Source of the DNA: Arthrobacter agilis
GTDB taxonomy: Bacteria > Actinomycetota > Actinomycetes > Actinomycetales > Micrococcaceae
DNA: 64,000 nucleotides
NCBI RefSeq assembly: GCF_002157505.1
Contig: NZ_NFSC01000029.1
Coordinates: 248,001 to 312,000, forward strand
Direction: 5' to 3'
The translations under genes and the position numbers were made by a program. This document shows, piece by piece, positions 29,456 through 35,133 of the stretch (positions are counted from its first letter, which is position 1; the number at the start of each line of letters is the position of its first letter). The notes beneath the pieces were generated by a model. That model saw only the letters and a program-made list of their open reading frames with translations. It searched no databases and was not told the DNA's origin.

Positions 29456-30694
29456 CTAGACGAGTGTTGCGGAGCGGGCGAAGAGCCTGTCCGAGGCGAT
29501 CTGTGCGCCGCGTCCCAGGGACTCGAGCTTCGCGGCGGCGATCTGCGGGTGGATCCTTCCGCCCAGCCCGCAGTCGGTGGAGGCCACGACATTCTCCCGA
29601 CCTACGAGTGCGGCGAACCGCTCGATGCGCTGGGCGACCAGCTCCGGGTGCTCGACGACGTTGGTCGCGTGCGAGACGACGCCCGGAACCAGCACCTTCC
29701 CGGCAGGAAGGTCGACGTCCTGCCAGAGGGTCCATTCGTGTTCGTGGCGCGCGTTGGCTGCCTCAAAGGAGTACGAACCGGCGTTGATGCCCAGCACGAG
29801 GTCCACGATGTGGCGGAACTCGATGTCCGTGGTGTGCGGGCCGTGCCAGGATCCCCAGCAGACGTGGAACCGGACCTGTTCCTCGGGTAGTCCCCGCAGC
29901 GCATAGTTCAGAGCCTCGACCCGGATCCGCGTGAACTTCTGGTAGTCCTCGATGGTGGGCTCGGGGTTGATCTGGTCCCAGTTCTCCGCGATGGACGGAT
30001 CGTCGATCTGCACGATCAGGCCTGCTTCGACGATGGCCTTGTACTCCTCGCGCAGGACATCGGCCCAGGCGTAGATGAACTCTTCCTCCGTGGCGTAGAA
30101 GTCGTTGCCGATCCTGCTCGCGGACCCCGGTGAGAGGGCCGTGATAAATCCTGTCGGAATACCCGCAGCGCCCAGCCCCGCTTTGAGGTTCGTGATGTCG
30201 CTGGCCAGTGCGGCGTGCCCGGTGTAGGAGATCGGTCCGGTCGCGGAAGGAAAGGCCGTGGCGTTCTTGCCGATCTGGATGCCGCTCTCGGGATCCTGGT
30301 AGGCCGCCGCAAACCGGGTCCAGTCACGCCGGTCAGCGAACGAGGTCAGCCTGACGGCGCCGGGCTCGCTACGGACAGGCTCGGCGAGGATCGGGTTGAA
30401 ATCCGTCAGTTCCAGGCCGGAGGTGCGCTGGAAGCTGTAGGTCCACCAGGCGCCGTAATCGACCGGGTTGGACATCGCCTTGCCGTACTCGCCATCGCCC
30501 GGGATCGTGATCCCGAACTCCTTCTGGCGTTGGACGAGGTCCACCACGGCAGTCGTGAGCAGTCCCTCGAATTCGGGTGTCCGTTCCAGGGTGAAGCCGT
30601 CCTCGGCAAACGTGCGGGCGGCGTTGGCGGCGATCAGTTCCGGTGTGCGAGGCAGCGAGCCGGCGTGGCTGGTGGAGATGCGATCGAGTGTCAT
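29456..30694 (-). CDS. Cobalamin-independent methionine synthase II family protein (MetE C-terminal-like methyltransferase)
   Basis: The 412-residue single-domain TIM-barrel protein corresponds to the catalytic half of MetE. HVCWGSWHGPH and the late ASTDCGLGGR supply the His/Cys zinc ligands that activate a thiol, and the N-terminal ISTSHAGSLPR fits the short MetE-like group. Such proteins transfer methyl groups from methyl-folate or a small methyl donor to homocysteine or another thiol; short forms often do not use polyglutamyl methyl-THF. An S-box-like RNA element ends at its ribosome site (AAAGGA), so S-adenosylmethionine control is plausible. Neighbouring metY and metB support a role in methionine or methylated sulfur metabolism. 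Confidence 0.85.
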   Translation of the reverse strand: MTLDRISTSHAGSLPRTPELIAANAARTFAEDGFTLERTPEFEGLLTTAVVDLVQRQKEFGITIPGDGEYGKAMSNPVDYGAWWTYSFQRTSGLELTDFNPILAEPVRSEPGAVRLTSFADRRDWTRFAAAYQDPESGIQIGKNATAFPSATGPISYTGHAALASDITNLKAGLGAAGIPTGFITALSPGSASRIGNDFYATEEEFIYAWADVLREEYKAIVEAGLIVQIDDPSIAENWDQINPEPTIEDYQKFTRIRVEALNYALRGLPEEQVRFHVCWGSWHGPHTTDIEFRHIVDLVLGINAGSYSFEAANARHEHEWTLWQDVDLPAGKVLVPGVVSHATNVVEHPELVAQRIERFAALVGRENVVASTDCGLGGRIHPQIAAAKLESLGRGAQIASDRLFARSATLV

Positions 30695-30707
30695 GATGCT
30701 TTCCTTT

Positions 30708-30798
30708 CCATCGGTCCTGCCATTAGCACCTTTCCGGACAGGGAATCCGGGGGAAGCTGCAGCGTCACGGAGGCAGGTCTCTCAGCTGCTCTGGATGG
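30708..30798 (-). ncRNA. S-box-superfamily-like riboswitch candidate upstream of the MetE-like gene
   Basis: Read on the minus strand, CCATC and GATGG close an outer stem (30794-30798 with 30708-30712). CAGAG and GAGAGACC follow, then a P2-like stem GCAGC/GCTGC (30785-30789 with 30759-30763). A P3-like CCGGA...TCCGG hairpin and the hallmark AAAGGTGCTAA (about 30723-30733) come next. CCTGCC in the P2 region (30772-30777) can pair with GGCAGG after the hallmark (30716-30721), as the S-box pseudoknot does. A separate P4 is missing, as in SAM-I/IV forms, and the usual GCAACC reads GCTTCC. The outer stem abuts the ribosome site, which fits translational control. Pairings were made by eye. Confidence 0.55.
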
Positions 30799-31181
30799 TG
30801 TGGCTTAGGGCTCTAAATCCACCGGTGACGCAGGCACGTCCCCTCCACAGTTCAAAGACTGAGCACCAATCGGAGGGGCTGGCCCCATCATGGACGACGA
30901 TCAGGGCGCTGGGAAAACCAGGAGCGTAATATTCCGGAGCAATTTGTGGTGTGAGGCCCCCTGTCGAGCGTTATGGCCCGAAATGTTTACTTCGAGCATC
31001 ATGCCGTGGTTATACTTCCAACAGCTTCATGAATTGTGGCCGCCAAGCTCCGACTTGGCCACATACCAACCCCGCGCTCGGTGGGTGGTTCGGATGACGA
31101 AGCGGTCCGCATTCGCCCCTTCTCGGGGTACCTGGTGCGGGCAAGAGCTCCCGAAAGGACGCGGCCACGTGCCGCCCGCCC
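30799..31181. other. Intergenic stretch without a supported gene
   Basis: Lower GC than its surroundings. It contains an inverted repeat TGTGGCC (31035-31041) / GGCCACA (31057-31063) that might be an operator for the toxin-antitoxin pair, and AAAGGA (31154-31159) before the next small ORF. The open frames here look like noise. Confidence 0.4.
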
Positions 31182-31358
31182 ATGACTGCTACCTCCTCAA
31201 TTGCTGCGTCCTCCTCCCCGGTTCCCCTGTCCGTCGTGAGCATCCACGACTACGAGGCACTGATGGCTCCACGCGAAGCGTTCGTGGACTTCCTCCTCAG
31301 ACCGCATGCGGTCACCAGTCGCATGGAGGACGCTGGTCTGCCTGCGCTGGCAGTCTGA
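31182..31358 (+). CDS. Putative antitoxin-like small protein (58 residues) upstream of the PIN toxin
   Basis: A 58-codon frame ends 3 nt before the PIN-domain start, the spacing expected for an antitoxin-toxin pair. The sequence (Ser-rich N-terminus, then SIHDYEALMAPREAFVDFLLRP and an acidic/hydrophobic tail) does not show a clear Phd, RHH or AbrB DNA-binding domain. An AAAGGA element lies about 22 nt upstream. It may be an unusual antitoxin, the C-terminal toxin-neutralising part of one, or a decayed gene. The antitoxin assignment rests on position only. Confidence 0.4.
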   Translation: MTATSSIAASSSPVPLSVVSIHDYEALMAPREAFVDFLLRPHAVTSRMEDAGLPALAV

Positions 31359-31361
31359 GGA

Positions 31362-31841
31362 ATGGCACCTACAAGCGGCCTCCTTCTGGATACCGACGTC
31401 ATCGTGGAGTTGCGGAGCCCACGCCCTTCTGCGGCTGTCGTCGACTTTCTCCAGCGGAGGCGACACTTTCGGATATTCGTCTCCGCTCTGACAATCGGAG
31501 AGCTGCACCTGGTCAGCCGGGAGAACCAGCAATACCGGTCCGTCGGTGCCTGGGTGCAGGAGTTCGTGGACTCCTACAGCTCGAACATTCTTCCTGTTGA
31601 CGTCGATATCGCGGCTGTCTGGGGTCCCATGCTGAGTGACTCCGAGGTGTCCGCAGTCGATTCCCTCATTGCTGCGACTGCCATTCATAAGAGCCTCTCC
31701 ATTGTGTCGGGAAATGTGGAGGTCTACCGGAAATTCGCGGTGTCGGCCATCAATCCCTGGATTCCAGAAGCCCATCCCACCGCGGATGAGGCACCGCCGC
31801 TCCCGCGTTCCCGGACAGGACCGGCGACCCAGGCACTTTAG
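31362..31841 (+). CDS. vapC: PIN-domain ribonuclease, VapC-like toxin
   Basis: The 159-residue protein has the PIN acidic residues: Asp in LLLDTDVIVELRSPRP (about residues 8-23), Glu in SALTIGELHLV (about 47) and Asp in SAVDSLIAATAI (about 99). Such proteins cleave RNA with Mg2+ and are usually neutralised by an upstream antitoxin. The C-terminal 25 residues beyond the fold are Pro-rich. Location between a MetE-like gene and metY suggests an inserted module rather than part of the sulfur pathway. Activity is plausible because all acidic positions are kept. Confidence 0.8.
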   Translation: MAPTSGLLLDTDVIVELRSPRPSAAVVDFLQRRRHFRIFVSALTIGELHLVSRENQQYRSVGAWVQEFVDSYSSNILPVDVDIAAVWGPMLSDSEVSAVDSLIAATAIHKSLSIVSGNVEVYRKFAVSAINPWIPEAHPTADEAPPLPRSRTGPATQAL

Positions 31842-34459: not shown

Positions 34460-34617
34460 CCCACGTCCAGCAGCACGCCCCTGTTTCAGGCCTGTTCACT
34501 ACACAATACGACGGGCGATGACCCCGTGTTTCTCCGTACGACAGCTCGCTTCCCCGGCTCTTGGGTGCGAGCACAAACGGTGATTGATTGAATTCATACG
34601 CTACGAAAGGACCCATC

Positions 34618-35133
34618 ATGACGGACATCTCGGACCTCAACCCACAGCGCCTTCGGCATGTGCTGGGACACTTCGCCACTGGGCTGACGGTGATCACAGC
34701 GGCGACGCCCACGGGTCCGGCTGGGTTCACCTGCCAGTCCTTCGCTTCCCTCTCGCTCAACCCGGCGCTGGTCACCTTCAGTCCGGCCCGTTCCTCCAGC
34801 ACCTGGCCTCTGCTGCGTGCAGCCGGACGCTTCACCGTGAACATCCTGTCGGCAGAGCACCAGCACCTGGCCGGCCAGTTCGCACGCTCCGGCACGGACA
34901 AGTTCGCCGGCGTCGACTACACCACGTCCCCGCTGGGCAACCCGGTCCTGGATGAGGCACTCGCCTGGGTGGACTGTGAACTGCACCAGGAGTACGACGG
35001 CGGCGACCACACCATTGTGGTGGGCAGCGTCCGGTCCCTGAGCGCGCGGCTTGACGCCGAACCCCTGCTGTTCTTCAAGGGCGCCTACGTCGGAGTGCAG
35101 TCCCGGGCAGCAGTGCTGGAAAGGACTGCATGA
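34618..35133 (+). CDS. Flavin reductase family protein (FMN-binding split barrel)
   Basis: The 171-residue NAD(P)H:flavin oxidoreductase has LRHVLGHFATGLTVITA near the N-terminus, the FTCQSFASLSLNPALVTFSP flavin-binding segment and a C-terminal GAYVGV. It would supply reduced flavin to a two-component monooxygenase, most likely the LLM enzyme at 27309, the only such enzyme in the window. The ATG at 34618 follows GAAAGGA; the frame opens at 34588. It is 158 nt after metB, with AT-rich promoter-like sequence between, so it may be transcribed separately. Confidence 0.88.
   Translation: MTDISDLNPQRLRHVLGHFATGLTVITAATPTGPAGFTCQSFASLSLNPALVTFSPARSSSTWPLLRAAGRFTVNILSAEHQHLAGQFARSGTDKFAGVDYTTSPLGNPVLDEALAWVDCELHQEYDGGDHTIVVGSVRSLSARLDAEPLLFFKGAYVGVQSRAAVLERTA

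Follow-up and report, generated by a model that had tools for sequence, protein, structure and literature searches.

The MetE-like locus

The window, 64,000 nucleotides of Arthrobacter agilis DNA, contains a leftwards-transcribed gene for a MetE-like protein that is preceded by a variant SAM-I-type aptamer (Table 1). A canonical SAM-IV riboswitch lies divergently in the same intergenic region and is the sole entry from a search of the whole window with Rfam at gathering score. Downstream of it come a PIN-domain (VapC-like) gene (31362–31841, plus strand) and then genes of the metY and metB types; it is odd for a methionine gene cluster to begin with a PIN gene. An NtaA/DmoA-type FMN monooxygenase gene (TIGR03860; 27309–28664, minus strand) close to the methionine genes and a flavin reductase gene (34588–35133, plus strand) make this a likely sulfur-scavenging neighbourhood.

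An earlier reading made from the sequence alone had called the gene behind the aptamer MetE-like, and the Meth_synt_2 match (PF01717) agrees. The nearest solved chains, 3rpd and 1ypx, belong to the methionine synthase family, but the protein reaches no NCBIfam equivalog cut-off (PRK09121, 55.6 bits against 392). By these sequence comparisons it is assigned to the core methionine synthase type, with no named subfamily. The AlphaFold model is poor (mean pLDDT 48.2) and was not used.

Table 1. Features of the variant riboswitch and associated genes. Coordinates refer to the window, except for the last row, which refers to locus L109.
Feature	Coordinates	Strand	Basis
Variant SAM-I-type aptamer (full Rfam match)	30705–30801	minus	RF00162, 44.0 bits, E 4.6e-9 in a 301-base search
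P1, 5′ strand CCAUC, pairing with 30708–30712	30794–30798	minus	5/5 pairs unchanged in 57 leaders
P2, 5′ strand GCAGC	30785–30789	minus	third pair A-U here, G-C in 43 canonical leaders
Pseudoknot, 5′ side CCUGC (P2 loop)	30773–30777	minus	columns 30–134: CG in 14 variants, GC in 43 canonical
P2, 3′ strand GCUGC	30759–30763	minus	leader alignment
P3 base, 5′ side AGC-UU-CC	30752–30758	minus	Rfam match and variant alignment
UU replacing AA (A45 and A46 of the solved SAM-I RNA)	30754–30755	minus	U,U in 22/22 distinct variants; A,A in 43/43 canonical leaders
P3 upper stem and loop, CCGGA...UCCGG	30734–30750	minus	variable part
P3 base, 3′ side GG-U-GCU	30725–30730	minus	Rfam match and variant alignment
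U opposite the changed position (U57), U-U mismatch	30728	minus	columns 48–126: AU 43, no standard pair 14
Pseudoknot, 3′ side GCAGG (between P3 and P1)	30716–30720	minus	leader alignment
P1, 3′ strand GAUGG	30708–30712	minus	Rfam match and leader alignment
Ribosome-binding site AAAGGA, gapless after P1, 7 nt before ATG	30702–30707	minus	AAAGG/AAGG directly after P1 in 15 further copies
MetE-like protein, 412 aa, core methionine synthase type	29456–30694	minus	PF01717, 1.6e-9
Canonical SAM-IV riboswitch, divergent, same intergenic region	31025–31153	plus	RF00634, 60.2 bits; CAACC kept
mesX-mesD behind a variant switch	L109 832–2880	minus	after a 69-codon MetE-like remnant

An S-box aptamer with an altered pocket motif

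The Rfam match runs from 30801 to 30705, and the interval given in the sequence-only reading (30798–30708) extends exactly from P1 to P1. All of the elements described there are present in the window sequence, namely AAAGGTGCTAA, the outer stem P1, P2, P3 and the pseudoknot CCUGCC/GGCAGG, as is P2b (GAG/CUC), and the replacement of GCAACC by GCUUCC is confirmed at 30757–30752 (minus-strand reading). The proposed S-box membership was borne out by covariance-model search, in which the best match within the clan (the search reports the best clan member only) is SAM-I. The score nonetheless lies 0.4 bits below the RF00162 gathering score of 44.4; our own model R1, built partly from this aptamer, gives it 126 bits. 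The P1, P2 and P3 stems and the P2-loop pseudoknot of RF00162 are all found, but the pocket motif GCAACC is replaced by GCUUCC in each of 22 distinct copies. In the alignment, the other named pocket residues are identical to those of SAM-I. The plain minimum free energy of the aptamer is not unusual (z −0.07).

P3 and P1 are separated by 12 nt, pseudoknot strand included, and P4 is missing. This absence had been pointed out from the sequence alone and stands, but the likeness to SAM-I/IV elements drawn from it does not: RF01725 has no match at E≤10 in the window's genome, and SAM-I/IV has a P4 and lacks PK-1 in the available text of PMC6890682. The canonical SAM-I elements of the genus also appear by eye to be without P4, which makes it a weak criterion.

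Probable translational control

The start codon is situated 13 nt downstream of P1, and control should be at translation because this is too close for a terminator. The suggestion that the closing stem sits against the ribosome site in a manner that fits translational control is well founded, in that AAAGGA adjoins P1 and a simple scan of 30690–31250 finds no terminator-like and no promoter-like site. SAM-I switches that sequester the ribosome site carry it on the 3′ side of P1 (PMC2258182, available text). From the arrangement of the sequence, translational control of the MetE-like gene by the variant aptamer appears the simplest option. In folding without pseudoknots the ribosome site is unpaired at 0.68 when free and at 0.52 with the aptamer enforced, with no clear occlusion.

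A pairing against the ribosome site created by the UU itself (CUUCC with GGAAG) was considered and rejected. The tails after P1 are mostly GAUGGAAA or GAUGGAAG in both canonical and variant MetE-like leaders, and since they are alike in the two groups nothing there has changed together with the UU.

Distribution of the variant

A search of the 38 genomes of the genus with RF00162 gives 96 matches in 36 of them (E≤0.1). Among the 59 matches that were read, 47 contain GCAACC and 10 contain GCUUCC, and there is one weak match with GCAAACC (G016, 23.5 bits) and one that is chance-like (G023:C3, 21.3 bits). The Rfam cut-off hides eight of the ten variant copies, including that in the window, and two reach it (44.9 and 44.4 bits). 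The window's genome has five RF00162 matches, this variant and four with GCAACC, three of which reach the cut-off; one of these canonical SAM-I elements precedes metF (PF02219), with metE next on the same strand.

Model R1, built from the ten variant copies of the genus and run on 395 family genomes, gives 21 matches at 106–126 bits, all in the window's genus or a second one (g32); the next score is 83.7. All 21 matches above this gap have GCUUCC, and the 11 loci fetched from below it have GCAACC. A pattern scan with one genome per species returned 17 stretches, of which 16 are the UU variant in Arthrobacter-type DNA and one, from a Clostridia MAG, is unrelated sequence. A GCAACC pattern matched 162 of 226 family genomes, and a pattern with any first pocket base other than A matched 11 of the 226, ten with the UU variant and one (G150) chance-like and unlike the aptamer; as far as this pattern reaches, the first pocket base is not otherwise substituted in these 226 genomes. 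Two class-wide scans (296 genomes each) used GAGNNNCTG, which does not fit GAGAGACCTG and misses both the window copy and its canonical sisters; they are void, and the survey of the first pocket base covers the 226 family genomes, with the narrow one-genome-per-species pattern beyond them. The known range of the UU variant, as far as searched, is two related Arthrobacter-type genera, whose 23 copies (22 distinct) all read GCUUCC.

Conservation and covariation

P1, P2, the G-A of J1/2, both pocket uridines and the uridine opposite are unchanged in the 23 aligned copies. The pseudoknot shows a single G-U among the 22 distinct copies, and variation is located in the P3 upper stem and loop. Within the variants alone, both partners are changed at two pairs, each located in the upper stem of P3, and the first two pairs of this stem are unpaired in three and one copies, respectively (4 cells).

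In 55 pairwise comparisons of 11 variant genes, fourfold sites differ at 0.52 and third positions at 0.46, and the corresponding values are 0.036 for the aptamer core and 0.24 for the top of P3. The core is approximately 15 times less diverged than the fourfold sites (uncorrected). Core divergence is 0.085 among 43 canonical leaders and 0.19 between the canonical and variant groups. GCUUCC is not a product of decay, because it is uniform in 23 copies and the core differs by 3.6% where fourfold sites differ by 52%.

The orthologous leaders covary, as an S-box element should if the proposal made from the sequence alone were right: in the 57 MetE-like leaders, 88 cells are changed on both sides, compared with 23.4±3.6 in shuffles. 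Of all cells in these leaders, 97.4% are paired, in an alignment that was fitted to the model and leans towards structure. In 16 of these 57 leaders, one of the P2b pairs does not form.

Orthologous leaders and the origin of the variant

Of 295 family genomes, 125 contain MetE-like orthologues (137 matches in total), and 110 of the 137 leaders were examined (30 + 80 loci; R1 at E≤0.01). Fourteen contain GCUUCC, 49 contain GCAACC and 47 have no R1 match. All 14 GCUUCC leaders are in the two Arthrobacter-type genera, and none of the 49 GCAACC leaders is. The 57-leader alignment corresponds to the first batch, with the 14 variants and 43 canonical leaders, all of the latter from other genera.

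Six core columns differ completely between the two groups (Table 1). These are a P2 pair that is G-C in canonical leaders and A-U in the variants, a pseudoknot pair that is G-C and C-G, respectively, and the two pocket adenines; J1/2 contains no fixed difference from the 43 canonical leaders. The last two bases of the pseudoknot loop are highly conserved in SAM-I (PMC3764141, available text), and we assign the flipped pseudoknot pair to these two bases.

A protein tree gathers the 11 variant-driven genes into one fork (99/96; 100/98 relative to the canonical group), consistent with a single origin. The tree took 35 of 50 genes; a start and motif filter dropped 15, including three variant-driven genes (L120, L121, L124), L122 and nine canonical ones. 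These sequences suggest that the pocket was probably rebuilt a single time, in the ancestor from which one clade of Arthrobacter-type MetE-like genes descends. The sister group of this fork consists of MetE-like genes whose leaders have no R1 match, and one such leader (L133, 1150–1530) matches no Rfam family at E≤1.

Other orthologues are arranged differently. A SAM-IV element stands directly before the MetE-like gene in three of 20 scanned loci (L141, L142 and L174). In genome G031, of the window's genus, the MetE-like gene is 90% identical to that of the window and has no variant switch by R1; it follows a gene whose product has a tail resembling a Cys/Met-metabolism PLP enzyme (by eye), and a SAM-IV is located at the far edge of the locus.

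An apparent gene replacement and damaged copies

A MetE-like coding start is found behind all 23 variant copies, although some are truncated and one is followed by mesX-mesD. In the latter (genome G025, locus L109) the switch differs from that of the window by one base, and the MetE-like gene stops after 69 codons; mesX (PF08908) starts 6 nt after this remnant and is followed by mesD (PRK09121, 642.5 bits). The locus is syntenic with the window, and since much of the upstream DNA aligns it looks like a capture of the locus, with apparent replacement of the gene under a retained riboswitch, as judged from the sequence of a single genome that has 3% estimated contamination and a wrong species title. 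Two contigs (WNZI01000044.1, locus L104, and WNZI01000021.1, locus L109) are titled Vibrio cholerae strain 35D but contain Arthrobacter-type DNA syntenic with the window, and the title is apparently wrong.

MesD and MesX form a folate-independent methionine synthase (PMC7857596, available text). The MetE-like protein shares the core-synthase domain but is only 25% identical to the MesD of L109 over 232 positions. A SAM-I element as a leader of mesX was considered, and one is present at 10 of 26 MesX loci, all in genus g24, but it lies ~1.3 kb away on the opposite strand and is therefore no leader of that gene.

Damaged copies also occur. Both variant copies of genome G007 have damaged genes, and Arthrobacter sp. 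ISL-85 (L116, 3230–3500) has a decayed copy in which the P3 upper stem is broken and the MetE-like gene truncated, with the UU kept.

Methionine synthases in variant-bearing genomes

No metH was found in 14 genomes checked, nine of which bear the variant. Five of the 14 are missing metE, four of them variant-bearing (G001, G018, G200 and G230), and judged by gene content these four may have the MetE-like gene as their principal methionine synthase, mesD not being excluded in all of them. The fifth, G013, is of the window's genus, and none of metH, metE, MesX and the MetE-like gene is matched in it. That genomes lacking metE and metH rely on the MetE-like gene as their sole methionine synthase is therefore an unsafe proposal, and gene absence by these models is weak evidence because G013 is without all four; either some route escapes the models or the strain needs methionine.

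Relation to known SAM riboswitches

The element resembles SAM-I (S box, RF00162) in P1, P2, P2b, P3, the pseudoknot, J1/2 and GGUGCUAA, and in the position of the ribosome site on the 3′ side of P1, and differs in having GCUUCC for GCAACC, a flipped conserved pseudoknot pair (C-G for G-C) and no P4. SAM-IV (RF00634) belongs to the same clan and has a common pocket (PMC6890682), and the window has one ~220 nt away.

Natural changes of ligand are known for few riboswitch scaffolds, and for SAM-I the literature consulted describes a single case, the spermidine riboswitch (PMC10853860, available text). It is likewise a natural descendant of SAM-I with altered pocket bases, rare and of narrow range (13 examples there), but it occurs in Bacillus-type Gram-positive genera such as Bacillus and Trichococcus, is associated with polyamine genes, acts by transcription termination and is changed in both J1/2 and P3. 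The variant described here is set apart by that published description, being Arthrobacter-type, placed before methionine-synthase-type genes, arranged for translational control and altered in the P3 pocket only. No prior description of a GCUUCC variant was seen by title and abstract start among the matches listed from open-licence PubMed Central, and we regard the element as a new SAM-I variant. Rejection of SAM is possible in SAM-I variants whose pocket is changed (PMC10853860, available text), and the spermidine variant is a precedent for it.

Membership of a variant that has already been described (SAM-IV, SAM-I/IV or the spermidine riboswitch) can be set aside as highly improbable. The clan is the same, and the spermidine variant also has changes in the P3 internal loop; however, the genome has no RF01725 match at E≤10, neither the altered J1/2 nor the polyamine genes of the spermidine variant are found here, and SAM-IV, which has no P4 in the available text of PMC6890682, needs P5 and PK-2 after P1, a place that is taken here by the ribosome site and the ATG, with no room left.

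Proposed mechanism and ligand

The fold, its conservation, the clade and the six fixed differences are matters of sequence and are plain from the alignments, and the element is very probably a functional translational switch derived from SAM-I. Ligand binding would stabilise P1, and a stabilised P1, whose 3′ strand adjoins AAAGGA, would block translation of the methionine-synthase-type gene. This predicted OFF logic follows from P1 lying against the ribosome site and from how the class usually behaves.

In SAM-I the residues within 5 Å of SAM are 6–8, 11–12, 44–47, 57–59 and 87 (PMC6890682, available text). G11 together with C44-G58 reads the methionine end, and U7 reads the charged sulfur (PMC3764141, available text). 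Since the equivalents of G11, C44-G58 and U7 are kept, the methionine end and the positive sulfur would still be read, and with A45 and A46 beside the adenine both replaced by uridine, the adenine contact would be lost. A pocket that keeps the first set of contacts and loses both adenines would be expected to take the methionine or sulfonium end but not adenine in the usual manner.

We propose, with a probability of roughly 45%, a new natural riboswitch class on the SAM-I scaffold whose members reject SAM and respond to a different methionine-cycle compound, recognised by its methionine or sulfonium end and with no contact to adenine. The altered-ligand idea of the sequence-only reading is strengthened by the fixed change from AA to UU relative to canonical orthologues, and uniform UU in every copy found suggests a different, or differently measured, metabolite. 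The sequences tilt towards a pocket that no longer reads SAM in the ordinary way; that the ligand is a methionine-cycle metabolite other than SAM has somewhat less than an even chance, and examples of candidates are methionine, S-methylmethionine, SAH and the still unknown methyl donor of folate-independent methionine synthases. A relaxed pocket, for which SAM would be one ligand among several, seems improbable. Most pocket residues are unchanged, which is a counterpoint to a rebuilt pocket, and a founder change that merely accompanied selection on the fold is conceivable since the variant is confined, as far as searched, to two related genera.

It is also conceivable, but rather unlikely, that the switch is still specific for SAM, with a UU pocket that binds it more weakly or faster, such that the MetE-like gene is turned off at a different SAM level from metF-metE and the sulfur-uptake genes. 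The contacts to methionine and sulfonium are kept by alignment with the RNA of PMC3764141, the regulated gene is of the methionine-synthase type, and SAM is still a sensible signal because orthologues stand behind canonical sensors of it (SAM-I in 49 of 110 leaders and SAM-IV in the three loci described above). Against this, A45 belongs to the highly conserved bases of SAM-I (PMC3764141, available text), and a simulation paper (PMC3656099, available text) has the SAM adenine stacking on C46 and places A44, which in its numbering (one lower) is the first of the two pocket adenines, in the hydrogen-bond network of the ligand. Both adenines are changed with no reversion in 22 distinct copies, and a shift in affinity alone needs no fixed UU. 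An element that binds no ligand, acting as a constitutive leader or on mRNA stability or simply decaying, is very unlikely: it would accord with loss of the pocket adenines and with the decayed copy in L116, but not with the low divergence of the core relative to fourfold sites or with an invariant pocket and P1 and a nearly constant pseudoknot beside a variable P3 loop, and loss of function is not expected to keep the same UU together with every other pocket base.

The proposed class with an altered ligand would have arisen by a small change of the core, comprising two pocket bases and two compensated pairs, that is fixed in the copies found. With canonical sisters both elsewhere in the window's genome and upstream of orthologous genes, it offers a clean before-and-after pair for the evolution of RNA specificity. 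The switch stands before core methionine synthases, in one instance including MesX-MesD, for which the methyl donor is unknown, and its ligand might point to that chemistry.
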